Below the pieces are notes generated by a model. The model saw only the letters and a list, made by a program, of their open reading frames with translations. It was not told the origin of the DNA and did no database searches. Positions 4,891 through 23,571 of a DNA stretch of 64,000 nt are shown piece by piece (within the stretch, counting starts at the first letter, position 1; every line of letters begins with the position of its first letter). The DNA is from Flavobacteriia bacterium (GTDB lineage: Bacteria; Bacteroidota; Bacteroidia; Flavobacteriales; Weeksellaceae). Where the stretch lies: NCBI GenBank assembly GCA_015999765.1, contig JAECQR010000004.1, positions 124,001 through 188,000 of the forward strand, given 5' to 3'. The position numbers and the translations under genes were made by a program.

Positions 4891-4926
4891 AAAAAAACCG
4901 TTTTGATGACTTCAAAACGGTTTTTT
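4891..4926. terminator. Bidirectional terminator between lpxK and the DOMON operon
   Basis: CCGTTTTGA/TCAAAACGG stem flanked by an A-run on the left and a T-run on the right. Confidence 0.8.
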
Positions 4927-4946: not shown

Positions 4947-5708
4947 TTAATTCTTAATTAATTTCTCAAAAGATTTCACGCCATCATTTGCTTCAATTTC
5001 CAGAAAATAAGTGCCGGGACTTAATCTGTTTAAATCGATGCTGCTGTTTTTAAGTTTCGGAGATACAATAAATCTTCCGGAACTGTCGTAAACACGAATT
5101 GATTTAATGCTCTCTGAGTTTTTAAAATTCACTGTTCCTTTGGATGGGTTAGGATACATCATAATTTTTCCCTGCAGATTAACATCATCCGCCGCCAGGG
5201 CAGCATCATAATTCATTCCCAAAGTAGCATAATCCCGTTTGGCTGCGCCATGATAGGAAAGCGTAAGTGTACCGTCTCCTCTTGCGACAAAGACATTTAC
5301 CGTTCCAGCCGCATTAGCAATGGGCGCATCGCCGGCCCCACCTGAGAGACTTCTTGTTGCAACGACTGTTCTTGTACTTCCGGAAATAGTATTCGAAGTC
5401 ACCGTCCAGTCCTGAGCAGCATCTGCTGATGGCGTTACACCTACTCCGTTGAATGTATAGTCCCTTGCAGAAGCAGAGTTGTAAATAAATCCGTCGGCTC
5501 CTGATGCCATACCTTCATCGCCAGCTCCGAGTCCCAGAAACGAGTTACTCGGTCCTGAAAGGGTGAGTCTTACCATGGTTGGCATTGTTTCCATCTTTAC
5601 AGAAACCCCTGTACTTCCAACGAGGAAGGGCGTTCCTGAACTGTATTGTGCACCGATTAAAATACAGGCACAAAAACTGGATAAAATAAGTAGAAGTTTT
5701 CTTTTCAT
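4947..5708 (-). CDS. T9SS type A exported DOMON-like domain protein (putative heme b protein)
   Basis: This 253-residue protein has a signal peptide (ending near ILIGA at 20), a domain at about 25-165, and a C-terminal T9SS type A sorting domain (MMYPNPSKGTVNF at 183-195, ending SFEKLIKN). The middle domain resembles DOMON: small hydrophobic FLGLGAGDEGM, then QDWTVTSN, a long strand pair and LTLSYHGAAKRDY. Met67 and His153 sit where the axial heme ligands of the cellobiose-dehydrogenase cytochrome (Met65/His163) would be expected. This assignment is made by eye and needs a profile search. It is the last gene of an operon with a c-type-heme lipoprotein and a YceI-like protein, which fits a surface redox role. 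Confidence 0.75.
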   Translation of the reverse strand: MKRKLLLILSSFCACILIGAQYSSGTPFLVGSTGVSVKMETMPTMVRLTLSGPSNSFLGLGAGDEGMASGADGFIYNSASARDYTFNGVGVTPSADAAQDWTVTSNTISGSTRTVVATRSLSGGAGDAPIANAAGTVNVFVARGDGTLTLSYHGAAKRDYATLGMNYDAALAADDVNLQGKIMMYPNPSKGTVNFKNSESIKSIRVYDSSGRFIVSPKLKNSSIDLNRLSPGTYFLEIEANDGVKSFEKLIKN

Positions 5709-5709
5709 T

Positions 5710-6234
5710 TTATTGCATTTTTAAAAGGTTAATAATATTCTGTCTTTGAGTTTGCACAGCATATTCAAAGGGTTTAATTCCCATGTGATCCGGCTGTTCT
5801 TTTTTAGCGCCGTACTTCAGCAGCATTTTCACCAACTCTTCGTTTCCTGTTTTTACTGCCCAGATGAGCGGTGTGGTGCCATTGGCATCTGCAATATTCG
5901 GATCGGCTTTTTTAGCTAGAAGCGCCTCCGCAAGGTCCTTTTGATACCTGATACACAAACCTGCAAGAGCGGTCCCCTCAGGACTTTTGTAATTGATATC
6001 TTTTACATGCTCAATCAGAAATTTTGCCACGTTGGTATTGCCACGGTAGCAGGCCAGAATCAAAGGAGAAAAACCCATAGAATTTGTGCTGTTAATCACA
6101 TCTGGATTTTGTTTAAGCAGCTGTTGCATTTCTTCTACTGTTCCGGATCTCGCTACATCAAAAACATCTTTCTGCTGAGCGTTTATCAACATTACGCCAA
6201 GCAGTAGTATGATTAAAGAAAGAGCGGTTCTCAT
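5710..6234 (-). CDS. Secreted ankyrin-repeat protein
   Basis: This 174-residue protein has a signal peptide (MRTALSLIILLLGVMLINAQ) and about four ankyrin repeats, with clear copies at about 54-85 (GFSPLILACYRGNTNVAKFL) and 119-150 (GTTPLIWAVKTGNEELVKML). It should be periplasmic. Ankyrin proteins of this size often accompany periplasmic redox or heme enzymes, but the partner here can only be guessed from the operon. The start overlaps the YceI-like gene by 4 bp, which implies translational coupling. Confidence 0.88.
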   Translation of the reverse strand: MRTALSLIILLLGVMLINAQQKDVFDVARSGTVEEMQQLLKQNPDVINSTNSMGFSPLILACYRGNTNVAKFLIEHVKDINYKSPEGTALAGLCIRYQKDLAEALLAKKADPNIADANGTTPLIWAVKTGNEELVKMLLKYGAKKEQPDHMGIKPFEYAVQTQRQNIINLLKMQ

Positions 6235-6776
6235 ATTTTCTCAAGTTCAAAATTATAATCCACATTCACGGTCTCTGCAATCTTCTTTTTAATTACACTT
6301 GGGATGCTGATATTATATTCCGCAGGTTTTGCAGAAAATTTTCCTGAAATATAAATTTTATCATCCTTACGGTAGATTTGTGCCGTGGATGAAACGTTAT
6401 TCTTCACCCCATGAAATGTTAGTGATCCTGACACCGTATAGCTGCGGGGCGAAGTGTTAAGTTCTTCCAAACTGTAATTTTCAATCTTTCCTACAAAAAC
6501 TGCTTTAGGATACTTAGAAGATTCAGCATAATTTTCATTGAAATGTTCTTCCATGAGCGCACTTTTGAACTTAAAGTTCTTATTCATTGCGATGCTTGCA
6601 ATATCACCTGTTTTTATATTTAAAACAGTTGCTACGCTTGAATTTTTAGCATCCACGTCCTCGAAAAGCGGAACATTTGCTTCAAAATGTACGGTTCCGG
6701 TCTTGGTACTATATTTCTGCGAAAATGCCAGATTTCCTAAAATCAAGGCTGCTAAAATGATAAGTCTGTTATACAT
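6231..6776 (-). CDS. YceI-like domain protein, periplasmic
   Basis: This 181-residue protein has a cleavable signal peptide (ending LAFSQ) and the YceI lipocalin-like pattern: TGTVHFEANVP near the start, SKYPKAVFVGKIENY in the middle and GSLTFHGVKNNVSSTAQI after it. YceI proteins bind polyisoprenoid lipids or quinone-like ligands in the periplasm and are often next to cytochromes. Here it sits between the c-type-heme lipoprotein (18 bp upstream) and the ankyrin gene (4-bp overlap). It is distinct from the YceI lipoprotein at 42850. Confidence 0.85.
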   Translation of the reverse strand: MYNRLIILAALILGNLAFSQKYSTKTGTVHFEANVPLFEDVDAKNSSVATVLNIKTGDIASIAMNKNFKFKSALMEEHFNENYAESSKYPKAVFVGKIENYSLEELNTSPRSYTVSGSLTFHGVKNNVSSTAQIYRKDDKIYISGKFSAKPAEYNISIPSVIKKKIAETVNVDYNFELEKI

Positions 6777-6794
6777 TGTTGCGATTTTATTTAA

Positions 6795-7148
6795 TTATTC
6801 TTTTAAACCGTCATTCTTCCATTTTTTCAGAAGATCAATATTACTTGGGGACAAACTGCCGCCCTGAGGCATTTTTTGAGGATCCCCGTTAGGCCGCTGC
6901 ACCCTGTCCAGAATATTATCAATAGCATTTTTAACCAAGGTGTAATCCGTGAGCGGAAAGAATCCAGACGCTCCACCCGGCGAATGGCATACCGTACAGT
7001 TAGTTGCAATCAGCGGTTTAATATCATTGGTATAAGCTACTGTTGCAGGAAGACTTACTTTCTCGGAGATGTCGTCATAAGTCCGGGTATCACAGCCGAG
7101 AAGTGCAAAAAGAGCGAGAGTCGTTAATAGGTTAAACGGTTTTTTCAT
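6795..7148 (-). CDS. Mono-heme c-type cytochrome lipoprotein
   Basis: This 117-residue protein has a lipoprotein signal (lipobox LLGC, Cys19) and one heme c attachment motif CTVCH at 51-55, in the context IKPLIATNCTVCH. A Met in the following KMPQGG segment could be the distal heme ligand. This layout resembles small cytochrome c domains found at the ends of Bacteroidota surface lipoproteins. It is second in the operon, between the β-barrel protein and the YceI-like protein, and provides the covalent heme of the proposed redox chain. Confidence 0.88.
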   Translation of the reverse strand: MKKPFNLLTTLALFALLGCDTRTYDDISEKVSLPATVAYTNDIKPLIATNCTVCHSPGGASGFFPLTDYTLVKNAIDNILDRVQRPNGDPQKMPQGGSLSPSNIDLLKKWKNDGLKE

Positions 7149-7160
7149 GATGCTGATTCT

Positions 7161-8003
7161 TTAGAATACACGGTATAAATTGAAGCCGAAAAAGAAATGA
7201 CCTTTCCCCCAGTTTCCGGTAGCGTTGCTGATGTATCCAACTTCAGTAATCGGTTGCGAATTGGTAAAGACCAACTGAAAAATGTGACCTCCCGTATCAA
7301 TATCCATCCCTACAGATAAAGGATTCTGATAATAATTTTCATCCTCCATGTTCAAAAAATATTCAGCATTCAGTGAAACTCTTTTTGATATTTTATATCT
7401 TCCGCCAATTCCTGCCGCAAAAAGATTTTCATTCTCAATCTCCGGATTGATGAGGTTTCTGTGGATATAAGTAGGCGTTAGCTGCATACTGAAACTTTCA
7501 GAGAATCTTCGGGAAATAAGGATCTGAGTTAGATAAGCCATACGGTCGGTGAACCTAAGGTTTGGATAATTATCCCGGTCAAGTTCCGAATTAATGTCGA
7601 TAACATGATATCCAACTACGTCAAAAGGCATTTCGCCCATCTGTTTTAGCAACCGGTATTTTGCGCCAAATTCATAGGTTTTCTGATAGGTATGTCTGGC
7701 AGCGCTTAGCGATATGCCATCCGTTAAACCATAAATTACTCCCAATTTGGTTGTAGCGTGATCAAGACCAAAAAAAGTTTTAAACCCATCGCTTACATCA
7801 CCGAAACGGTGAGAAATATCTACATAAAATTCTTTCTTAGCCGGCATCTTTGTTGATTGTCCTGTTACAATCTGAAGCGCCTTGAAACTGGGTTGGTAAA
7901 TTTCTGCGGACGCTACTGTGTCGATCTCCTTCAGTAAATCTTCCTGTGAAAATGCAGCAAAACCCGTAAAAATAAAGAGCAAAAATGTAAATTTCTGTAT
8001 CAT
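7161..8003 (-). CDS. Outer-membrane β-barrel protein, DUF5777 type
   Basis: I start this gene at the ATG at 8003 (MIQKFTFLLFIFTGFAAFSQ), which gives a clean signal peptide and 280 residues; the longer reading frame up to 8180 overlaps the promoter and the operator. The mature part has alternating β-strand character with DISHRFGDVSDGFKTFFGLDHATTK near the start and a C-terminal GHFFFGFNLYRVF typical of outer-membrane barrels. It matches my recollection of DUF5777 proteins found in front of cytochrome c/YceI genes. It is the first gene of a five-gene operon running to 4947. Confidence 0.8.
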   Translation of the reverse strand: MIQKFTFLLFIFTGFAAFSQEDLLKEIDTVASAEIYQPSFKALQIVTGQSTKMPAKKEFYVDISHRFGDVSDGFKTFFGLDHATTKLGVIYGLTDGISLSAARHTYQKTYEFGAKYRLLKQMGEMPFDVVGYHVIDINSELDRDNYPNLRFTDRMAYLTQILISRRFSESFSMQLTPTYIHRNLINPEIENENLFAAGIGGRYKISKRVSLNAEYFLNMEDENYYQNPLSVGMDIDTGGHIFQLVFTNSQPITEVGYISNATGNWGKGHFFFGFNLYRVF

Positions 8004-8092
8004 TAAATACTTTTTTAAGATTAAACCAACATTTTCCCGGCACAAGAAACCTGCGCAGAGACTTATTTTGTCGACCTGCACGAAAGGCCTAA

Positions 8093-8100
8093 CAAATTTA
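8093..8100 (-). promoter_or_regulatory. -7 promoter box of the DOMON/cytochrome operon
   Basis: On the minus strand this reads TAAATTTG. It lies about 90 bp before the ATG at 8003 and 37.5 bp downstream of the centre of the GTGAC-N4-GTCAC palindrome. Confidence 0.6.
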
Positions 8101-8123
8101 TATCTTAAAAAAGTAAAAAAGCG

Positions 8124-8137
8124 GTGACTAAAGTCAC
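8124..8137 (-). promoter_or_regulatory. Predicted Crp/Fnr operator (GTGAC-N4-GTCAC)
   Basis: GTGACTAAAGTCAC has perfect 5-bp CRP-like half-sites, GTGA-N6-TCAC in CRP terms, with the spacing of an E. coli CRP site. It overlaps the stop codon of the adjacent Crp/Fnr gene. Its centre lies 37.5 bp from the end of the operon's -7 box, the place expected for a class II activator. That the neighbouring regulator binds it is inference. Confidence 0.65.
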
Positions 8138-8769
8138 AGGGATTTAACAACCTCAATACCAGTAACATCCTGCCGGACATTTCCCTCGTGTTCGAATTTT
8201 TTCAGGATCCTGCTTACGACTTCGCGGGCAGTTCCCAGACTGTTGGCAATTTCTTTATGCGAAACTTTTACAGGGTTTTTTCCGGTAATTTCTATCTTGT
8301 TCTGAAGATAGTCCATGACCCGCCGGTCCAGGCGGTGAAAAACTACTTTGTTCGTCATATCAATCATCTCGGCATATCTTAAATCATATTCTCTGTAGAA
8401 GAACTGGTTGATTTCCGGATAAGTGATAATCCATTTTTTCATATGCTGTACCGGGATCAGCATCACCTCGGAAGACTCATCAGTGGACGCAAAAACCTTA
8501 CTGATCCCATCCTTAAACATTGTTGAAAAAGTCATAATACAACTCCGTCCCGGTCTTACAAAATAATAAACAAGTTCGCGGTCACTGCTCATCGTGTACA
8601 CTTTCACCAAACCGCTCAAAACAATCGGGACATACTTCACCCGCTGCCCTTCCTGCATCAATTCTGTTTTGGGACCGAATTTCTGAACTACAGATTTCTC
8701 ACGCAGTTCATCCTGGAAATCATTTCCAAGAAAGTGGAAAGGCTGCTCGATTGTAAAGTCGCTGCTCAT
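8134..8769 (-). CDS. Crp/Fnr family transcriptional regulator (Crp1)
   Basis: This 211-residue protein has an N-terminal cyclic-nucleotide-binding-like β-roll (about 20-120), a dimerisation helix and a C-terminal winged helix-turn-helix (about 170-195, HKEIANSLGTAREVVSRILK). Alignment to E. coli CRP gives Arg182, Glu183 and Arg187 at the positions of Arg180, Glu181 and Arg185, the residues that read GTGA half-sites. It has one Cys (77) and no Fnr-type N-terminal Cys cluster. It is transcribed toward the DOMON/cytochrome operon, whose promoter carries a GTGAC palindrome. Confidence 0.93.
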   Translation of the reverse strand: MSSDFTIEQPFHFLGNDFQDELREKSVVQKFGPKTELMQEGQRVKYVPIVLSGLVKVYTMSSDRELVYYFVRPGRSCIMTFSTMFKDGISKVFASTDESSEVMLIPVQHMKKWIITYPEINQFFYREYDLRYAEMIDMTNKVVFHRLDRRVMDYLQNKIEITGKNPVKVSHKEIANSLGTAREVVSRILKKFEHEGNVRQDVTGIEVVKSL

Positions 8770-9024
8770 GATTTTTTTTATAAAATTATATATTATATTG
8801 ATAACTGCGGTTTTTAAATCATTAATTCTGACCCGTAAAACGTAAATATTAAAAAAAACTATGCATTACAGAACTTACTGTGAATTAGTTCATAACCTTT
8901 TATTTAATACTCTGGCAAAGAGATAAATATTCACATTTCATTGTAAGCAAACAGTTGATACAACGTTGAGAATTAAAAGCCGTTTTATTTGCTTTTAAGG
9001 ATCTGACGGTAGTATTTTTACATC
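8770..9024. other. Intergenic stretch, AT-rich
   Basis: No gene is visible. TATAATTTTA-like sequences just upstream of 8769 could be the Crp1 promoter. A TTTG at 8988-8991 and TATTTTTA at 9013-9020 are spaced 21 bp apart and could be a plus-strand promoter for the candidate RNA downstream. Confidence 0.35.
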
Positions 9025-9569
9025 ACCAATCAAGTCAGAATGCATAGCTGAATGGAAGCTTAACAGCTAAAATTTCACGCTTAAAATCTTTAAAGATGGT
9101 CAGAAATCTGAAAGCTGAGGCAATCAACTGGAAACCGAAAGGAGTAGGCTGAAAACCCGGAGAATCAAAATCCGATAAATTCTTTACTGATGCACGACGA
9201 CAAAGGCGCGGTACACACAGAGTTGAAAAAAGAAAAATCCGACAGGAACTTTCTTCATTAAAACTGGTATACCGAATAAAAAGTGGAACTTACGAGGTGA
9301 AAGAAGGTTTTTACCAGTCTCAGAAGAAGACGATGTTGAAAAACTAAATCTGAAGTCTGCAGCCAACAGGTAGAAATCAGGAATCACATCAACATTGAAA
9401 CTTAAAGTGTTTACTGATGAAACGATGATAAAAACGAACCGCAGGGAACTTTTTAAAATCAAAATTTTTGAAGTCAGTACTTAAAGTTGAAGTAAGAAGT
9501 GAAGCTTAACTGATGATTCAGCAAAAAGATTTGCAAATAATCCCCTTGCCGGACCATCAGTTTTTTTTT
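9025..9569 (+). ncRNA. Candidate long non-coding RNA
   Basis: About 545 bp of purine-rich sequence without a convincing reading frame on either strand; stops are frequent in all plus frames. It is preceded by a promoter-like pair (TTTG, 21 bp, TATTTTTA) and ends in a structured terminator. It does not carry the signatures I would recognise for tmRNA, RNase P RNA or SRP RNA. This is a weak call from layout alone; covariation or RNA-seq evidence would be needed. Confidence 0.3.
9509..9569 (+). terminator. Structured terminator of the candidate RNA
   Basis: Outer stem ACTGATG (9509-9515) with CATCAGT (9555-9561) followed by nine T's; inside lies a second hairpin GCAAA-AAGA-TTTGC (9521-9534). 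Confidence 0.6.
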
Positions 9570-9595
9570 ATGCTTTTTTCGGAAAGCAATTTTCT

Positions 9596-9603
9596 TAATT
9601 TTG
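9596..9603 (+). promoter_or_regulatory. -7 promoter box of dinB, leaderless
   Basis: TAATTTTG followed by CC ends 4 bp before the dinB ATG, so the mRNA should begin at or almost at the start codon. Confidence 0.6.
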
Positions 9604-9607
9604 CCTC

Positions 9608-17263: not shown

Positions 17264-17893
17264 TTAAAAATCTTTCAGCAGCTTGATCTGGTTCCGGTAA
17301 AGCAGCACTTTACCGTCGTTTTCCAGTTTTTTCAGAAGACGGCTGATGACCACGCGGGAGCTTGCCAGATCGTTGGCAATTTCTTCATGGGAGACATTCA
17401 GCACTGTTTTTCCGGAAATCTTTGATTTTTCTCTGAGGTAATTGCTGAGCCTCACGTCCAGACCATTGAAAACTACCATGTCCAAAGCCCTGAGCATTTC
17501 GAAAAAACGGTTCTGCATGGTACGCATCACGAAACTCTTCCAGCTCGGATATTTGTGCATCCAGGAATCCATATATTCCACAGGGATCATCCACATTTCC
17601 ACATCGTCTTCGGCTACGGCCATAATCTCGCTTTTCGCTTCCTGCATACAGCAGGTAAACGACATGGCGCAGCCTTCGCTGGCACTCAGATAGTACATCA
17701 GCAGTTCGCGCCCGTCGGGCTGCATCATCGATACTTTCACGGTTCCCTCAAGTACGATGGGCATGAAAAGCAAACGCTGACCGATGCTGATGATCACCTC
17801 ACCTTCTTTAGCAGTTTTTCTTTTACCCACGGCAAGAATTTCCGCCATCAGTTCAGGCTCGAAAATATCTTTCAGTAATTCGTTGACTTCCAT
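17264..17893 (-). CDS. Crp/Fnr family transcriptional regulator with Cys-rich patch (Crp2)
   Basis: I start at the ATG at 17893 (MEVNELLKDI), 5 bp after a -7 box, giving 209 residues. A cyclic-nucleotide-type β-roll (about 25-110) contains EGCAMSFTCCMQ with Cys75, Cys81 and Cys82; Crp1 has only one Cys in the matching GRSCIMTFSTMF. The C-terminal winged HTH (HEEIANDLASSRVVISRLLK) has Arg180, Val181 and Arg185 at CRP positions 180, 181 and 185. Val replaces the Glu that recognises G:C at operator position 7. The Cys patch suggests redox or persulfide sensing, by inference. It is flanked by the efflux and sulfur clusters. Confidence 0.93.
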   Translation of the reverse strand: MEVNELLKDIFEPELMAEILAVGKRKTAKEGEVIISIGQRLLFMPIVLEGTVKVSMMQPDGRELLMYYLSASEGCAMSFTCCMQEAKSEIMAVAEDDVEMWMIPVEYMDSWMHKYPSWKSFVMRTMQNRFFEMLRALDMVVFNGLDVRLSNYLREKSKISGKTVLNVSHEEIANDLASSRVVISRLLKKLENDGKVLLYRNQIKLLKDF

Positions 17894-17897
17894 GATG

Positions 17898-17905
17898 CAA
17901 AAATA
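17898..17905 (-). promoter_or_regulatory. -7 promoter box of Crp2, leaderless
   Basis: On the minus strand this reads TATTTTTG followed by C; the ATG at 17893 begins 4 bp after it. Confidence 0.6.
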
Positions 17906-17973
17906 CGCAATTCCGCTGCTCTGTACAATGACTGCCGATTCCATTTAGCCACAGATCACGATCATACCTTTAA

Positions 17974-17987
17974 GTAACTTATGTTAC
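17974..17987 (+). promoter_or_regulatory. Predicted Crp2 operator of the sulfur cluster (GTAAC-N4-GTTAC)
   Basis: GTAACTTATGTTAC has perfect half-sites. Its centre is 36.5 bp from the end of the plus-strand -7 box at 18010-18017, identical to the efflux promoter. It is 82 bp upstream of the Crp2 -7 box on the other strand, so effects on crp2 itself would need a different geometry. Confidence 0.72.
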
Positions 17988-18009
17988 CTTATGCCGGCTT
18001 CAGTTGTAT

Positions 18010-18017
18010 TATTTTTG
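18010..18017 (+). promoter_or_regulatory. -7 promoter box of the sulfur cluster
   Basis: TATTTTTG followed by C; the first gene starts 75 bp further on, leaving a leader of about 70 nt. Confidence 0.65.
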
Positions 18018-18092
18018 CATTGTAAAAAATTGGTGAAGACAGAAATGAATGCAGGTTTTTTTATAAATCAGTAACTTTATATTAAATAATTA

Positions 18093-18709
18093 ATGGGCCA
18101 GGGAAGTTTTTGGAATGAAAGATATGCGCACACAGGTTATGCCTACGGAACGATACCGAATGCGTATTTAAAGGAAAAAGCAGCAGGACTGGCTGCCGGA
18201 CTATACTTCTCCCTGCGGAAGGTGAAGGCCGGAACGCTGTGTTTCTCGCAACACAGGGCTGGGAAACCTATGCCTTTGACCAAAGCGTTGAAGGTGGAAA
18301 TAAAGCATTGCTCCTTGCGGCACAAAACGATGTGGAAATCAGTTACACCGTTTCGGAAGTGGAAAACATCCGGTATCCTGAAAAAAAATTTGATGCTTTG
18401 GCACTGATCTTTGCGCACTTCCCGGGAGCGGACAGAAGGACCTATCACCGCAAACTGAGCAGTTTCCTGAAACCGGGCGGCCATCTCATTATTGAAGGAT
18501 TTTCGAAAAATCATGCGAATTATCAGCAGCTCAACCCGAAAGCGGGCGGACCTCGGGACCTCACGATGTTGTATGACCTGGAAGAACTGAAAGAAGATTT
18601 TAATGATTTTGAATTTACCGAAGCAGCAGAACAGCAGGTAACACTTTCCGAGGGAGAATTTCACCAGGGCGAGGCCTCGGTAATCCGGATTTTCGCCGTT
18701 AAAAAATAA
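18093..18709 (+). pseudogene. TehB-like SAM methyltransferase, frameshifted
   Basis: The N-terminus (MGQGSFWNERYAHTGYAYG) is in one frame and the rest (ILLPAEGEGRNAVFLATQGW onward) in another. The glycine-rich SAM-binding motif LPAEGEGRNAVFLA becomes readable only after a shift at about 18201-18202, where one base appears missing (GCCGGACTATACTT; an added G would give Arg-Ile-Leu-Leu). The reconstructed protein has about 205 residues, with FLKPGGHLIIEGF as the later methyltransferase motif. TehB-type enzymes methylate chalcogen or thiol compounds. It is first in the Crp2-flanked cluster. A sequencing error is as likely as true decay. Confidence 0.8.
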
Positions 18710-18768
18710 GGTACCGGATTTCATACCTGATGAAAACACAAATAACAACCAATTAAAAAATATTTACC

Positions 18769-20160
18769 ATGTTCTTTAAACACATTTATGATACCAGTTT
18801 GGCGCAGGCCAGTTATTTAATCGGCTGCCAGGCAAAAGGAGAAGCAATTGTGATCGACGCGAAACGCGATGTCGACACCTATCTGCAGATCGCAAAAGAA
18901 AATAATCTTAAGATTACCCATATTACCGAAACGCATATTCACGCAGATTTTCTTGCGGGTTCACGCGAACTTGCAGAAATTACCGGCGCTCAGCTGTATC
19001 TTTCGGATGAGGGCGGCGCGGACTGGCAATATGAATTTCCCCATAAAGGTTTGAAACACGGCGATAAAATCAAAGTCGGAAACCTGACATTAGAAGTCAT
19101 TCATACCCCGGGACATACCCCAGAAAGCGTCAGTTTTCTGCTTACCGATCATCCTGCAAGCGATGAACCCGTGATGATTTTCACTGGAGACTTTGTTTTT
19201 GTGGGCGATATCGGCCGCCCCGACCTGCTCGAAAAAGCGGCGGGACTTACCGGCACCCAGGAAAAAGGGGCACACGAAATGTACCAGTCTGTAAAGGATT
19301 TTTCACAACTGCCGCCCCACATTCAGGTGTGGCCCGGACATGGCGCGGGATCTGCCTGCGGTAAAGCGCTGGGCGCTGTTCCAAGTTCTACTGTTGGCTA
19401 CGAGAAGATGAGAAACTGGGCATTCCGCTTCGAAAGTGATGAAGAAGGTTTTGTGCAATATCTCCTGGAAGGTCAGCCGGAACCGCCGAAGTATTTTGCC
19501 ATGATGAAAAAGCTCAATAAAGTTGACCGGCCTTTGCTGACAGAGGTTCCCAAACATCCGAAACTTTCGGAAACGGAATTCCTTCACAAATATAACGATG
19601 CCGTAAAAGTTATTGATACACGCAATAAAATGGAATTTGCAAAAGGTTTCATTCCCGGAAGCATCAATATCCAGAACAACAAAACCCTGAGTACCTGGGC
19701 GGGCTGGCTGCTGAGTTACGATGAAGATTTCGTGATCGTGGCTCCGGAAGAAGAAATGGAGGAAATCACCAGAAAACTCATGCGCATCGGTCTCGACCGG
19801 GTCGCCGGATTTATTTCCGACGTCAATTTACCGGGCATTGAACTCCAGAAAGCCGACGTTATCGGTATCGAAGAATTTAAAACCTATCTTGGCAAAGAAG
19901 AAGTGCAGATCGTAGATGTAAGAGGAAAAACCGAATATGAAGAAGGGCATGTGGAAGGTGCAGAAAATGTTTTTGTAGGAATGCTTCAGCAAAACCTCGA
20001 TAAAATAAGCAAAGAAAGACAGGTGATTATTCACTGCCAAAGCGGCGACCGCTCTGCGATTGCCTACTCCGTGCTCAGAAGAAACGGGTTCAATAATGTA
20101 AAAAACTATTCCGGTGGGATGAAGGAATGGCGCGAAAAAGAAAATCCCGTAATATCTTAA
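18769..20160 (+). CDS. MBL-fold metallohydrolase fused to two rhodanese domains (persulfide dioxygenase-like)
   Basis: This 463-residue protein has an N-terminal metallo-β-lactamase fold with ETHIHADFLAGS (His56, His58, Asp60), HTPGHTPES and GDFVFVGDIGRPDL, the layout of the ETHE1 type of iron-dependent persulfide dioxygenase. Two rhodanese-like domains follow: one at about 270-360 without an active-site Cys (VIVAPEEEME) and one at about 370-460 with an active CQSGDRS loop. The fusion suggests oxidation of sulfane sulfur and transfer to or from a thiol carrier. It is 59 bp after the methyltransferase and 9 bp before the DUF2892 gene. Confidence 0.93.
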   Translation: MFFKHIYDTSLAQASYLIGCQAKGEAIVIDAKRDVDTYLQIAKENNLKITHITETHIHADFLAGSRELAEITGAQLYLSDEGGADWQYEFPHKGLKHGDKIKVGNLTLEVIHTPGHTPESVSFLLTDHPASDEPVMIFTGDFVFVGDIGRPDLLEKAAGLTGTQEKGAHEMYQSVKDFSQLPPHIQVWPGHGAGSACGKALGAVPSSTVGYEKMRNWAFRFESDEEGFVQYLLEGQPEPPKYFAMMKKLNKVDRPLLTEVPKHPKLSETEFLHKYNDAVKVIDTRNKMEFAKGFIPGSINIQNNKTLSTWAGWLLSYDEDFVIVAPEEEMEEITRKLMRIGLDRVAGFISDVNLPGIELQKADVIGIEEFKTYLGKEEVQIVDVRGKTEYEEGHVEGAENVFVGMLQQNLDKISKERQVIIHCQSGDRSAIAYSVLRRNGFNNVKNYSGGMKEWREKENPVIS

Positions 20161-20169
20161 AAACCAAAA

Positions 20170-20415
20170 ATGATTCAGAATATCACCACAAACTGGAATA
20201 TCTTCCGCATCCTCCGTCTGGCATTAGGCCTTTTCCTGATGACAGAAGCCATCAGGACCGGCAATTGGTTCATGACGGTATTTGCCACGGCAATGATCAT
20301 CATGCCGCTGCTGAACATCGGCTGTTGTGCGGGCGGGAACTGTGCCGTACCGGACAGTAAATCATCAGGCTCCGATGCGGAAGAAGTAGAATTCGAAGAA
20401 GTACAATCAAAATAA
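20170..20415 (+). CDS. DUF2892 membrane protein with Cys motif
   Basis: This 81-residue protein has two hydrophobic helices (RILRLALGLFLMTEAI and FMTVFATAMIIMPLLNIGCC) followed by GCCAGGNC and an acidic tail. This is the DUF2892 module that anchors the YgaP rhodanese in E. coli. Between an MBL-rhodanese and a thioredoxin gene it probably belongs to sulfane-sulfur handling at the membrane; the exact function is not known. Confidence 0.88.
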   Translation: MIQNITTNWNIFRILRLALGLFLMTEAIRTGNWFMTVFATAMIIMPLLNIGCCAGGNCAVPDSKSSGSDAEEVEFEEVQSK

Positions 20416-20425
20416 AGTAAAAAAC

Positions 20426-20722
20426 ATGTCAAAATTTCAGGAACTTATCAGTCAGAACAAACCTGTTTTGGTAGACTTTTTTGCAGAATGGTGCGGCCCG
20501 TGCAAAATGCAGGCACCCATTCTGGAAGACCTTAAAAAACGGGTAAACGACCAGGCGACCATCATTAAAATCGATGTCGATAAAAACCAGGGCGTTGCGG
20601 CAAAATACGGAATCAGAAGCGTTCCTACGCTGATGATCTTTAAAAACGGAGAAGTAAAATGGAAACAGTCGGGGGTATTTCCCGCCGAAGAACTGGAACG
20701 TTTAATCAAAGAAAACAGTTAA
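20426..20722 (+). CDS. trxA: Thioredoxin
   Basis: This 98-residue cytoplasmic thioredoxin has the classic active site WCGPCK (Cys23 and Cys26) and the cis-Pro segment IRSVPTLMIFKNG. It has no signal peptide. Its place between sulfur-transfer genes suggests that it reduces persulfides or disulfides formed by the rhodaneses. The next gene starts 3 bp after its stop. Confidence 0.95.
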   Translation: MSKFQELISQNKPVLVDFFAEWCGPCKMQAPILEDLKKRVNDQATIIKIDVDKNQGVAAKYGIRSVPTLMIFKNGEVKWKQSGVFPAEELERLIKENS

Positions 20723-20725
20723 AAT

Positions 20726-21433
20726 ATGTACAAAAGCGTCATCATCGCTCTTTTCGCTCTGGTCATGATCAGCTGCAGCAAAGCCCAGAACACCGCAAGC
20801 ACAACATCACTTTCTGCGACCGAGTTTTCAGAAAAACTAAAAAAAACTCCTAATGCCCAAGTGGTGGATGTAAGAACCCTTAACGAATATAAAAAAGGGC
20901 ATATTCAGAACGCGGTAAACATCGACTGGAATGCTGACGATTTCGCAGAAAAAGCAGCCACTCTGGATCCGGCAAAACCTGTTTTTGTGTACTGCCTCAG
21001 TGGGCCCCGAAGTGAAGCCGCAGCAGAAAAGCTGAAGGAAATGGGCTACAGTGAAATCTATGAGATGAAAAGAGGCATGATGGAATGGCGCAGCAAAAAC
21101 CTGCCCGAGTTAAAATCCGCAGCAGCTACGCAAGGCATGAGTTTACAGCAATACAATGAGGAGCTGAAAAGCGACCGTTTGGTGCTTGTCGATTTTTATG
21201 CTGACTGGTGTGCGCCTTGTAAAAAAATGGAACCTTACCTGAGCAAAATAGCCGCAGAAATGCCTGAGAAAGTTAAAATTGTAAGGGTGAATGCCGATGA
21301 CAATACAGAACTGTGCAAAGCGATGAACGTTTCTGCCCTGCCGGTTCTTAAATTATACAGAAACAACGAAATCATTTGGGAGAGCCTTGGCTTTGTAGAA
21401 GAAGCCGAAGTGCGGAAACAGCTCCTGAAATAA
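20726..21433 (+). CDS. Rhodanese-thioredoxin fusion lipoprotein
   Basis: This 235-residue protein has a lipoprotein signal (MISC, Cys17), a rhodanese domain (about 30-125; active loop YCLSGPRS, Cys90) and a C-terminal thioredoxin domain (about 140-235; WCAPCK, Cys162 and Cys165; cis-Pro SALPVLKLY). A sulfurtransferase and a dithiol reductant in one envelope-anchored chain suggest that it accepts sulfane sulfur and releases it as sulfide or passes it on. It is tightly coupled to trxA (3 bp). Confidence 0.93.
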   Translation: MYKSVIIALFALVMISCSKAQNTASTTSLSATEFSEKLKKTPNAQVVDVRTLNEYKKGHIQNAVNIDWNADDFAEKAATLDPAKPVFVYCLSGPRSEAAAEKLKEMGYSEIYEMKRGMMEWRSKNLPELKSAAATQGMSLQQYNEELKSDRLVLVDFYADWCAPCKKMEPYLSKIAAEMPEKVKIVRVNADDNTELCKAMNVSALPVLKLYRNNEIIWESLGFVEEAEVRKQLLK

Positions 21434-21452
21434 CAGATCAACAAACTTAAAA

Positions 21453-22055
21453 ATGGAGAAAATTAAAATATGGTTCAGGAAAAACTGGAGTACTGCAATT
21501 CTTTTTGCGTTCTTCGTCCTGCTGCTCGTGAGCCCCGATGCAAAAGCATGGTTCATGCGGCAGATCATTTCTACCGGAATTATGAATTCCAGCGTGGAAA
21601 AGAAATCCGAAGCTGAGACCGAAGCCAATGATACCAAAATCATAACGGAAAACTTCACGGTGGCAGACCAGTCCGGCAACACGATCAGCACTGCAGACCT
21701 GAAAGGGAAAGTCGTGTTTATGAATTTCTGGGCATCGTGGTGTCCGCCCTGCCGAGCGGAGTTCCCTTCGATTCAGAAGTTTTACGACAAATATAAAAGT
21801 AATCCGAATGTCGTTTTTCTCACCGTGAATCTTGATGACCAGGCATCACTGGGCGAAAATTATTTGAAAAAGGAGAATTACACCATTCCGTTTCTTGTTC
21901 CGGCGGGAAGTATTCCAACAGCTTATTTCAACGGATCACTTCCGACTACGGTGGTGCTCGACAAAACCGGGAAAATCCGTCTTCATCACACTGGTATGGC
22001 CGATTACAGCAAAGCGTCTTTTTATAAAGAAATCGATGCACTTTTAAATGAATAA
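21453..22055 (+). CDS. TlpA-family membrane-anchored thioredoxin-like reductase
   Basis: This 200-residue protein has one N-terminal membrane helix (STAILFAFFVLLLVS), a linker and a TlpA/ResA-type domain with GKVVFMNFWASWCPPCRAEF (Cys97 and Cys100) and GSLPTTVVLDKTG around the cis-Pro. TlpA-type proteins reduce disulfides in the periplasm, often during cytochrome c maturation. A heme-binding protein is encoded directly after it, which fits that role. Confidence 0.92.
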   Translation: MEKIKIWFRKNWSTAILFAFFVLLLVSPDAKAWFMRQIISTGIMNSSVEKKSEAETEANDTKIITENFTVADQSGNTISTADLKGKVVFMNFWASWCPPCRAEFPSIQKFYDKYKSNPNVVFLTVNLDDQASLGENYLKKENYTIPFLVPAGSIPTAYFNGSLPTTVVLDKTGKIRLHHTGMADYSKASFYKEIDALLNE

Positions 22056-22124
22056 TAAGACAGAAATCGGCCTTTATATTCTTTAAATTCGAATGAAAGC
22101 ATCTTAACCTTAAAACACACACTC

Positions 22125-22720
22125 ATGAAAAAAGTGATCATCGTAGCAGCAGGAGTTTTATTAATGACGGCTTTAAGCTGCCAGAAAGAGCAGACCAAGG
22201 TAACAGAAAACACCGCAACTGAAGTTCCGGCTGGAAAAAAGGAGGGAATTCCGGACGGGGAAATTCTGAAAAACTACGCCGCGGAAGCCCAGCAGCTCCT
22301 CGGCTCGCAACTTAAACAGAAGATCGCGGAAGGCGGCCCGGAAAACGCACTGGAATTCTGCAACATCAATGCGATACCACTGACGGACAGTATTTCAAAA
22401 AAATATAAGGTAACCATTAAAGGGTTTCGGATCAATACCGGAATCCCGACAATGCTGCCAATCCTTCAGAGCTCGCGGTCATTACAACCTATAAAGCCAT
22501 GCTTGCTGCCGGTAAAATGCCTGAAGGCCTCCTGAAAGACGGCTATTATTATTCCCCGATCGTCACAAACGCCATGTGTCTGCAGTGCCACGGAACGCCC
22601 GGCAAAGAAATGACCGAGCAAACCCACAAGAAAATTAAATCCCTTTACCCGCAAGACAAAGCCACCGGTTATGGCGTGGATGAACTGAGAGGGATTTTCA
22701 GCATTGCGGTGAATCCGTAA
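22125..22720 (+). pseudogene. DUF3365-type c-heme lipoprotein, frameshifted
   Basis: The first part (22125 on) has a lipoprotein signal (ALSC) and a helical sensor-like domain (ILKNYAAEAQQLLGSQLKQK). Its frame breaks at about 22421-22422, where AAAGGGTTTCGG would read Lys-Arg-Val-Ser if a C were restored. The other frame continues VSDQYRNPDNAANPSELAVI and ends YYYSPIVTNAMCLQCHGTPG with a heme c motif CLQCH. The rejoined product of about 198 residues fits the Tll0287/DUF3365 family. A one-base error in the assembly cannot be excluded. Confidence 0.8.
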
Positions 22721-22741
22721 CAACCTCCTAAAATATTAGCC

Positions 22742-23206
22742 ATGAAGACGACGACACAGGACTATATTTTCGTAGGGCTGCAGTTTGTGCTTTTCGCCGG
22801 CTATGTGTTTGAATGGCTTCCAAGGGTGAAAGTTCCGCCTGCGGTTACCGTTTCGGGAATGGCTTTGGCGGTTCTCGGACTCGCCATCGCCGTATTTTCA
22901 GTAATTAACCTGAACAGAAGTCTTACCGTTTTTCCCACCTCAAAAAAAGGAGCCGAGCTTATTGAATCCGGCCTGTACCGGTGGGTAAGACACCCGATTT
23001 ATACAGGGATTATCCTTTTGGTGTTTGGATTTGCCGCAGGCATCGGTTCGGTACACAAATTGGGTATTGCCATCTGTATGCTGGTTCTTTTCTATCTGAA
23101 ATCCACTTACGAGGAAAAGCAGCTCCTGAAGCAGTATCCCAACTATGCGGACTACCGCAGGCGGACCGGAAGATTTTTCCCAAAGTTATTTAAAATCTTT
23201 CGTTGA
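22742..23206 (+). CDS. Isoprenylcysteine carboxyl methyltransferase (ICMT/PEMT) family membrane protein
   Basis: This 154-residue integral membrane protein has four hydrophobic helices and the ICMT signature GLYRWVRHPIYTG (about 76-88) followed by EEKQLLKQYPNYADYRRR near the C-terminus. Family members methylate thiols, lipids or isoprenyl-cysteine with SAM. In this cluster, a small-thiol or sulfide methyltransferase activity is a reasonable inference. It ends 2 bp from the converging rhodanese gene. Confidence 0.9.
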   Translation: MKTTTQDYIFVGLQFVLFAGYVFEWLPRVKVPPAVTVSGMALAVLGLAIAVFSVINLNRSLTVFPTSKKGAELIESGLYRWVRHPIYTGIILLVFGFAAGIGSVHKLGIAICMLVLFYLKSTYEEKQLLKQYPNYADYRRRTGRFFPKLFKIFR

Positions 23207-23208
23207 TT

Positions 23209-23571
23209 TCAGGCAGAACATTCTTTGGAAAGCGACAGGGAATGTGAAATAAAATCCGGCGGAGTTCCGGTCATTGGCAGGCCATTCTGTTGCCATTTCA
23301 CCAGACCGCCCATCACGGAGACCACATCGGCAATACCTCTTTCCGCAAGAAACTGCACCGCGGTTCTGCTGCGCAGTCCGTTGTTGCAGATCAGTACGGT
23401 TTTTCTGTTTTTATCGAGATTCGGAAGTTCCTCATCGAATTCACTGAAAGGGATATTCTTTTGATCGGGAAAAACTGCGCGGTAGGTATTGAATTCAAAC
23501 CGCTCACGGATATCGAGGAGCAGAAAATCTTCTCCTAAAGAAGCAAGGTGGGAGGGACAGATGGTATTCAT
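23209..23571 (-). CDS. Single-domain rhodanese
   Basis: This 120-residue cytoplasmic rhodanese has the substrate loop LLDIRERFEF and the active-site loop CNNGLRSRTA. No signal peptide is present. It converges with the sulfur cluster but has its own promoter region with a GTAAC-type operator, so it is probably co-regulated with the cluster. Confidence 0.93.
   Translation of the reverse strand: MNTICPSHLASLGEDFLLLDIRERFEFNTYRAVFPDQKNIPFSEFDEELPNLDKNRKTVLICNNGLRSRTAVQFLAERGIADVVSVMGGLVKWQQNGLPMTGTPPDFISHSLSLSKECSA

Follow-up and report, generated by a model that had tools for sequence, protein, structure and literature searches.

A conserved Bacteroidota operon pairs a secreted, probably heme-binding DOMON protein with an ankyrin-repeat protein

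The stretch of DNA analyzed here (64,000 nucleotides of contig JAECQR010000004.1, positions 124,001 to 188,000, from the Flavobacteriia bacterium assembly GCA_015999765.1; the whole stretch is called the window) carries on its minus strand six genes that form one conserved operon, coding for a Crp/Fnr-family regulator, a DUF5777 outer-membrane barrel, a cytochrome c, a YceI-family lipocalin, an ankyrin-repeat protein, and a protein that sequence and modelling identify as a secreted DOMON protein with a tail for the type IX secretion system (T9SS). The near-constant pairing of the ankyrin and DOMON genes is the most informative new fact, since the original prediction, made from the letters of this DNA, had given the ankyrin protein no role. 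Judged from conserved residues and the modelled fold, the DOMON domain likely binds heme. As to whether the operon as a whole is an envelope redox module under Crp control whose surface component is a b-type cytochrome, we regard the balance as even.

Gene order and the ankyrin-DOMON pair

A genome scan found the order Crp, DUF5777, cytochrome c, YceI, ankyrin, DOMON on one strand at 71 of 71 loci, with Crp immediately before DUF5777 at 69 of them; at the loci L066 and L123 two extra genes are inserted between these two. The gene order across relatives, for which the original prediction had proposed a check, is the same at all of these loci, and the genes which it had listed (barrel, c-heme lipoprotein, YceI, ankyrin and T9SS-exported protein) are all present on the minus strand according to profiles and the CTVCH motif. 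In the window, the five genes from the barrel to DOMON are separated by 12, 18, -4 and 1 nucleotides (nt), the distance from crp to the DUF5777 gene is 130 nt, and lpxK on the opposite strand bounds the unit at the DOMON end. The flanking genes vary, lpxK being present in the fetched stretch at only 15 of the 71 loci, and the conservation of the operon is therefore not simple chromosomal inertia. A functional link to LpxK was rejected on the same count.

The ankyrin gene, whose product matches PF12796 with an E-value of 1.2e-25, adjoins the DOMON gene on the same strand at 91 of 92 loci, in either gene order. These 92 loci are the annotated stretches with a DOMON score above 30 bits, namely the 71 operon loci and 21 others, and at ten of the loci with the pair no barrel, cytochrome c or YceI was detected in the stretch. 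When L224-L226, which were opened because an ankyrin was present, and L241, which was taken as a repeat of the L079 contig, are left out, the pairing holds at 87 of 88 loci. Outside the count stand L201, which scores 26 bits and has no ankyrin, L223, where both genes occur but the profile failed to detect DOMON, L192-L194 (another DOMON subfamily) and L202 (weak match). In a draw of 296 genomes from the family, every genome with DOMON also has the ankyrin (153/153) and 16 more have the ankyrin only; four of these 16 were opened, and a divergent DOMON gene lay beside the ankyrin gene in all four.

The ankyrin protein Cj1386 binds heme via Tyr57 and supplies the catalase KatA (PMC11442138; PMC4178425), and related ankyrin proteins elsewhere promote catalase activity (PMC10294975). 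Tyr63 of the window's ankyrin family is present in 86 of 86 sequences. Taken together with the Cj1386 precedent, the ankyrin-DOMON pairing suggests that the ankyrin protein loads heme into the DOMON protein. By this analogy, heme loading of an exported cytochrome in the periplasm would be the most economical role for the ankyrin protein, and we give about an even chance to a hand-over of heme to the DOMON protein there before its export.

Further pairs and relatives were seen elsewhere. At L056:7937-8935 from Chryseobacterium potabilaquae, a second YceI domain is fused to the ankyrin protein, which links YceI with ankyrin. Ankyrin-DOMON pairs of another family lie beside TauE/SafE-like genes at L195:5042-6666 and L196:5063-6746 and beside rhodanese-thioredoxin-like genes at L197:5050-6643 and L198:5565-7296, the neighbours being named by reading. 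A different short DOMON-type protein is encoded next to a MarR-like regulator gene, with no adjacent ankyrin, at L192:5955-6464, L193:6122-6634 and L194:5933-6439. Plasmid records contained no DOMON relative and five ankyrin relatives; four of these have no listed catalase or DOMON gene within 3 kb and the fifth has no listed genes, and with an incomplete gene table these five are uninformative.

The exported DOMON protein and its candidate heme ligands

For the full-length protein, the T9SS tail is the sole Pfam match above cut-off, and the DOMON assignment comes from its relatives and from modelling. Scanned singly, 19 of the 21 family members in alignment A1 match PF03351 DOMON with an E-value of at most 0.1 (best 8.2e-12). 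The AlphaFold2 model of the domain, built with 60 homologs, is confident (predicted local distance difference test, pLDDT, 92; predicted template modelling score, pTM, 0.87), and a Foldseek search of the PDB placed at the top dopamine beta-hydroxylase (DBH), ethylbenzene dehydrogenase gamma, pyranose dehydrogenase cytochrome b, cellobiose dehydrogenase (CDH) and nitrite oxidoreductase C. In VIA-align, ten entries of the DBH and heme-DOMON groups reached Z 9.8-12.7, and the next group was CBM9 at Z 6.9. The original prediction had proposed profile search and structure prediction for its DOMON-like reading, and both returned DOMON similarity, the profile match of the window's own domain lying below the curated cut-off and the model matching heme-type DOMONs such as CDH as well as DBH. 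Among 296 genomes of the family, 153 encode a homolog of the N-terminal 159 residues, as do 16 of 395 genomes of the phylum; a DOMON above the PF03351 cut-off, partly from other subfamilies, occurs in 11 of 295 genomes of the class.

Export by T9SS, likewise part of the original prediction, agrees with the type A tail, the signal peptide seen by eye, and the SprA gene of the same genome (SprA_N match 2.7e-154, SprA being the component searched).

The two residues proposed as axial heme ligands, Met67 and His153, proved to be strongly conserved. Met67 is identical in 60/60 close rows (A3, the window plus 59 of the 71 loci) and in 23/23 divergent rows (A4, down to 21% identity), and it is one of only three columns that are fully invariant in A4. 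For His153, 57 of 60 rows in A3 and 22 of 23 in A4 agree by column, and the remaining four rows carry a His within four columns. The two are 86 residues apart in the window protein, which resembles the plant protein HYP1 with M90 and H174 at a distance of 84 residues (PMC10784544). In a further paper, the Met/His pair is described as kept in heme DOMONs and absent from sugar-binding DOMONs and DBH, and the animal motif is given as SXDXXMGXD, to which the window's GDEGMASGAD is similar (PMC10691727). It is this agreement between the conserved Met and His and the published heme-DOMON pattern that makes heme binding likely.

A heme-binding protein outside the cell could also serve as a hemophore, i.e. 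the exported DOMON protein would capture outside heme and the ankyrin protein and the barrel would assist its uptake, and both the exported heme-domain candidate and the heme precedent for the ankyrin would suit such a role. However, Met/His ligation is more typical of cytochrome-type DOMONs than of heme capture, and profile scans found no TonB receptor among the six conserved proteins, so a hemophore appears unlikely to us.

Table 1. Coordinates of the operon and its elements in the window
Feature	Position	Strand	Remarks
DOMON/T9SS protein	4947..5708	-	signal peptide, DOMON domain (~residues 20-178), T9SS type A sorting domain (residues 184-253)
T9SS type A C-terminal sorting domain	4950..5159	-	PF18962 4.6e-13, TIGR04183 5e-15
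DOMON domain as modelled, 159 residues	5175..5651	-	
His153 codon (H134 of domain), candidate axial heme ligand	5250..5252	-	only His of the window's domain
Met67 codon (M48 of domain), candidate axial heme ligand	5508..5510	-	60/60 and 23/23
Ankyrin-repeat protein	5710..6234	-	signal peptide (by eye); proposed heme-loading partner; Tyr63 86/86
YceI-family lipocalin	6231..6776	-	PF04264; signal peptide (by eye)
Mono-heme cytochrome c, probably lipid-anchored	6795..7148	-	Cys19; CTVCH 51-55; Met93
DUF5777 outer-membrane beta-barrel	7161..8003	-	PF19089; 12 strands in low-confidence model
-7 type promoter element TAAATTTG (TAnnTTTG)	8093..8100	-	30 nt from Crp-site centre
Crp-type operator GTGACTTTAGTCAC (palindrome)	8124..8137	.	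overlaps 3' end of crp gene
Crp/Fnr-family regulator	8134..8769	-	opens conserved gene set; Cys77 71/71
Inverted repeat with A/T runs	4891..4926	.	between convergent lpxK and DOMON genes; likely bidirectional terminator (by eye)

Cytochrome c, YceI lipocalin and DUF5777 barrel

The other half of the operon is made up of three proteins from known families. The cytochrome c reaches 19.5 bits against PF13442, below the 27-bit cut-off, with its heme motif present; Cys19, a single CxxCH and the distal Met93 are found in 72 of 72 sequences and a lipobox pattern around the anchor Cys19 in 61 of 72, in line with the mono-heme c lipoprotein that had been predicted. The YceI protein matches PF04264 at 1.7e-12 (48.4 bits, cut-off 23.7) and the barrel PF19089 at 1.4e-90 (303 bits, cut-off 23.1). 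An AlphaFold2 model of the latter, built with 35 homologs and of modest to low confidence (pLDDT 62.7, pTM 0.64), has 12 strands. In structural comparison it comes closest to the channels FapF, KdgM and COG4313 (Z of about 15), with autotransporter barrels next, all of these matches lying at Z 14-15.

In porin-cytochrome conduits a wide barrel houses the cytochrome. The original prediction proposed an electron route across the outer membrane from two heme carriers and a barrel; in a conduit of this type the barrel would be a sheath between the two carriers, and the presence of a barrel, a cytochrome c and an exported heme candidate in one conserved operon would agree with it. The evidence on the barrel, however, speaks against this part: the barrel, 12-stranded in the low-confidence model, resembles narrow channels and autotransporters, the cytochrome has one CxxCH in every sequence, profile scans found no multiheme cytochrome among the operon proteins, and the DOMON gene occurs without a barrel at 10 of the 92 loci and at L239. 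Given one heme per cytochrome c and a narrow barrel in the model, an electron wire through the DUF5777 barrel is improbable, and a porin-cytochrome-type conduit seems to us very improbable indeed. As modelled, the barrel could pass a small molecule or peptide and would not house a cytochrome.

The three families also occur together outside the operon. DUF5777 is present in 153 of 395 genomes of the phylum, and among 35 hand-picked phylum loci with DUF5777, YceI was near in 31, a related cytochrome c in 31, both in 28, and ankyrin in only 5. In all, 40 stretches were hand-picked from the best DUF5777 and DOMON matches, of which L169, a 100-base placeholder, was unused. Other neighbours of DUF5777 were cupredoxin, Rieske and other cytochrome genes at one or two loci each (three confirmed by Pfam). 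A cluster with a 129-residue protein of the oligonucleotide/oligosaccharide-binding fold (tRNA_anti-like; the L137 copy was scanned) neighbours DUF5777 in 14 fetched loci, for example at L133:7785-8171, L137:6558-6944 and L140:6721-7107. At L068:10214-11980, a second DUF5777-cytochrome c-YceI set directly follows the operon, with no ankyrin or DOMON gene after it and no Crp site upstream. The insert between Crp and DUF5777 at L066:3701-6394 and L123:3716-6403 encodes a T9SS-tailed protein and a 620-residue protein with one CxxCH near its C-terminus; a scan of the L066 copy of the latter gave no Pfam match at E 0.01.

The strongest rival to a surface redox module is an envelope antioxidant system. 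In this case, YceI would carry a quinone in reduced form, which quenches lipid peroxyl radicals and is recharged by the cytochrome c, and the DOMON and ankyrin proteins would handle surface oxidants, similar to BcnA-LcoA of Burkholderia with other heme proteins replacing b561. Ubiquinone-8 has been found bound to YceI proteins, and BcnA, a YceI lipocalin linked to cytochrome b561, lowers lipid peroxidation, the BcnA-LcoA system protecting against lipid peroxyl radicals (PMC9113575); it is this precedent that makes the antioxidant role the strongest rival, and the YceI family membership of the 6231-6776 protein, the catalase-promoting ankyrins elsewhere (PMC10294975) and the YceI-ankyrin fusion in L056 would also fit. 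On the other hand, profile scans of the operon proteins detected neither a cytochrome b561 nor a catalase or peroxidase (the neighbours in other genomes were left unscanned for these), and the T9SS export of the DOMON protein would be unexplained. Therefore, an antioxidant system is a possibility to be kept in mind, although a rather doubtful one.

The Crp regulator and its operator

The regulator matches PF00027 (30.9 bits, cut-off 27.5) and PF13545 (39.3 bits, cut-off 27), and the window contains a single GTGAY-N4-RTCAC site, GTGACTTTAGTCAC. The pattern TGAY-N4-6-RTCA was found within 190 nt upstream of DUF5777 at 69 of 71 loci, compared with about 4% in shuffles. One of the two exceptions, L068, carries the site in front of its first DUF5777 copy, the measurement having been made at the second, and the other, L106, differs from the pattern by one base. 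In 69 of the 70 sequences with a site, the window among them, the motif TAnnTTTG, which we take to be the Bacteroidota-type -7 element from its consensus, stands at a distance of 29 or 30 nt from the middle of the site, whereas shuffles let one expect it anywhere in 60 nt in about 5 of 70. The spacing would place the Crp-type site near -41, the class II activator position, which agrees with the class II CRP-like site of the original prediction, and the operon's own Crp presumably binds GTGACTTTAGTCAC. Autoregulation of crp by the same type of site was not seen, as just 1 of 71 loci has a match within 200 nt upstream of crp, which is moreover a weaker one.

Cys77 is present in 71 of 71 regulators. 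The nearest paralog in the genome, the Crp protein at 17264-17944, is 40% identical, has the same Cys and lies beside rhodanese-like genes; it belongs to an apparent sulfur cluster at 17264-23571, 9 kb from the operon, with metallo-beta-lactamase/rhodanese, rhodanese-thioredoxin and TlpA-like genes named by reading. One could imagine a sulfur-linked redox module, in which the regulator would sense reactive sulfur by Cys77 and a sulfur compound would be processed by the heme proteins. The shared Cys of the two regulators would be in favour, together with the two ankyrin-DOMON loci that adjoin a TauE/SafE-like gene and the two that adjoin a rhodanese-thioredoxin-like gene. However, no such neighbours were noticed at the other ankyrin-DOMON loci, which were looked at without a profile scan for them, and the paralogs share only 40% identity, so that this reading, too, is an improbable one.

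Between crp and a dinB-like gene, about 840 nt (8770-9607) hold no convincing open reading frame, weak direct repeats and no Rfam match; the window as a whole has no Rfam match at gathering scores.

Proposed mechanism

In the mechanism that we propose, Crp would receive a signal, bind GTGAC-N4-RTCAC at the class II position and switch on the five genes. The DOMON protein would be a b-type cytochrome with its heme ligated by Met67 and His153, loaded with heme by the periplasmic ankyrin protein as its dedicated partner and then carried by T9SS to the cell surface or outside, where it may exchange electrons, giving or taking them, with an extracellular partner. Together with the YceI lipocalin, a putative quinone or isoprenoid binder, the cytochrome c, probably lipid-anchored, would form a periplasmic half that handles electrons or quinones. 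The DUF5777 barrel may let a small substrate or a redox shuttle pass through a narrow channel and would not be a sheath for a cytochrome; a small shuttle passing through it might join the inner and outer halves. A functional electron link between the two halves is conceivable, but we would rate it slightly below an even chance.

Several points weigh against this interpretation. Regarding the DOMON domain itself, the window's copy reaches PF03351 with E 2.4e-4 and 21.7 bits, below the curated cut-off of 32.7, the PF03351 profile detected no DOMON in the organism's own genome at E 0.001, and a DOMON profile searched against the sequences of solved structures found no heme DOMON at a useful E-value (best nitrite oxidoreductase subunit C, 0.18). 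DBH, the best structural match of the model, binds neither sugar nor heme (PMC10691727), hence the fold alone does not settle the ligand. Regarding the ankyrin, the divergent DOMON genes L239 and L201 (near contig end) have kept Met and His with no adjacent ankyrin gene, which indicates that the ankyrin is not always needed, and Cj1386 is described as cytoplasmic (PMC11442138), whereas the window's ankyrin protein has a signal peptide by eye. The export of a folded, heme-loaded protein through T9SS is assumed. Moreover, profile scans found neither an inner-membrane donor such as b561 nor an extracellular partner among the operon proteins. Finally, the operon is broken up outside the Chryseobacterium group, the ankyrin-DOMON pair and the barrel/cytochrome/YceI set being separate in many genomes, and because the two sets occur apart, their linkage in the operon does not prove an electron link between them.

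The first of these points would also be consistent with a DOMON domain that binds sugar or another ligand instead of heme, in particular as the sugar-binding CBM9 domains are the next fold group. Yet the Met and His occur in all aligned homologs and are missing in sugar DOMONs and DBH (PMC10691727), and the Z gap to CBM9 is clear, which leaves a non-heme ligand with a very small probability.

Relation to known systems

Every part of the operon comes from a known family, whereas the combination is, as far as we found, undescribed. Most of what is known of DOMON cytochromes concerns fungi, plants and animals, in which they form parts of larger enzymes. The DOMON domains of the CDH and pyranose dehydrogenase cytochromes, HYP1 and AIR12 share with the window protein a like fold (Z 10.0-11.5 for CDH and pyranose dehydrogenase), a similar Met-His spacing and a secreted or extracellular location; in contrast to them, the window protein is a stand-alone Bacteroidota protein with a T9SS tail and an ankyrin partner, with no fused dehydrogenase or b561. 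Cj1386/AnkB is likewise a small ankyrin protein encoded beside a heme protein, here a candidate one, and the invariant Tyr63 of the window's protein might be the counterpart of the heme-binding Tyr57 of Cj1386, but the partner in the window is DOMON and not catalase, its heme binding is predicted, and the location given for Cj1386 differs. BcnA-LcoA resembles the operon in a YceI lipocalin next to envelope heme proteins, while in place of b561, which is lacking among the operon proteins (neighbours elsewhere unscanned), cytochrome c, barrel, ankyrin and DOMON are found. The closest relative within Bacteroidota is the DUF5777-cytochrome c-YceI set, whose three families are neighbours in 28 of the 35 hand-picked loci and which is joined here by Crp, ankyrin and DOMON. 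Conduits of the MtrCAB type have in common with the operon an outer-membrane barrel and a cytochrome in one operon; they differ by the narrow barrel of our model and the lack of a multiheme cytochrome here.

A literature search, in which few subscription journals were covered, found no description of the gene combination, of a T9SS-exported DOMON cytochrome or of an ankyrin-DOMON pair, and no paper mentioning DUF5777. Searches for bacterial or Bacteroidota heme DOMONs, a Chryseobacterium DOMON, DOMON sugar recognition, YceI with cytochrome c in the Bacteroidota outer membrane, and T9SS in extracellular electron transfer returned nothing on-topic.

Biological significance

Tentatively, and with more doubt than for its single parts, the data may be brought together in the idea that Bacteroidota export a DOMON b-type cytochrome via T9SS after heme loading by an ankyrin chaperone, and that in the Chryseobacterium group this cytochrome might be wired to a Crp-controlled set of cytochrome c, YceI and narrow barrel, with a small diffusible carrier replacing a multiheme wire. 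Strict conservation is seen in the regulator and the partner genes as well as in the likely operator. Moreover, the uncharacterized and widespread DUF5777/YceI/cytochrome c neighbourhood of Bacteroidota gains a first testable role. If true, a stand-alone, surface-exported DOMON cytochrome with a candidate heme-loading partner in common soil and water bacteria would show that heme proteins can be among the cargo which T9SS brings to the cell surface.

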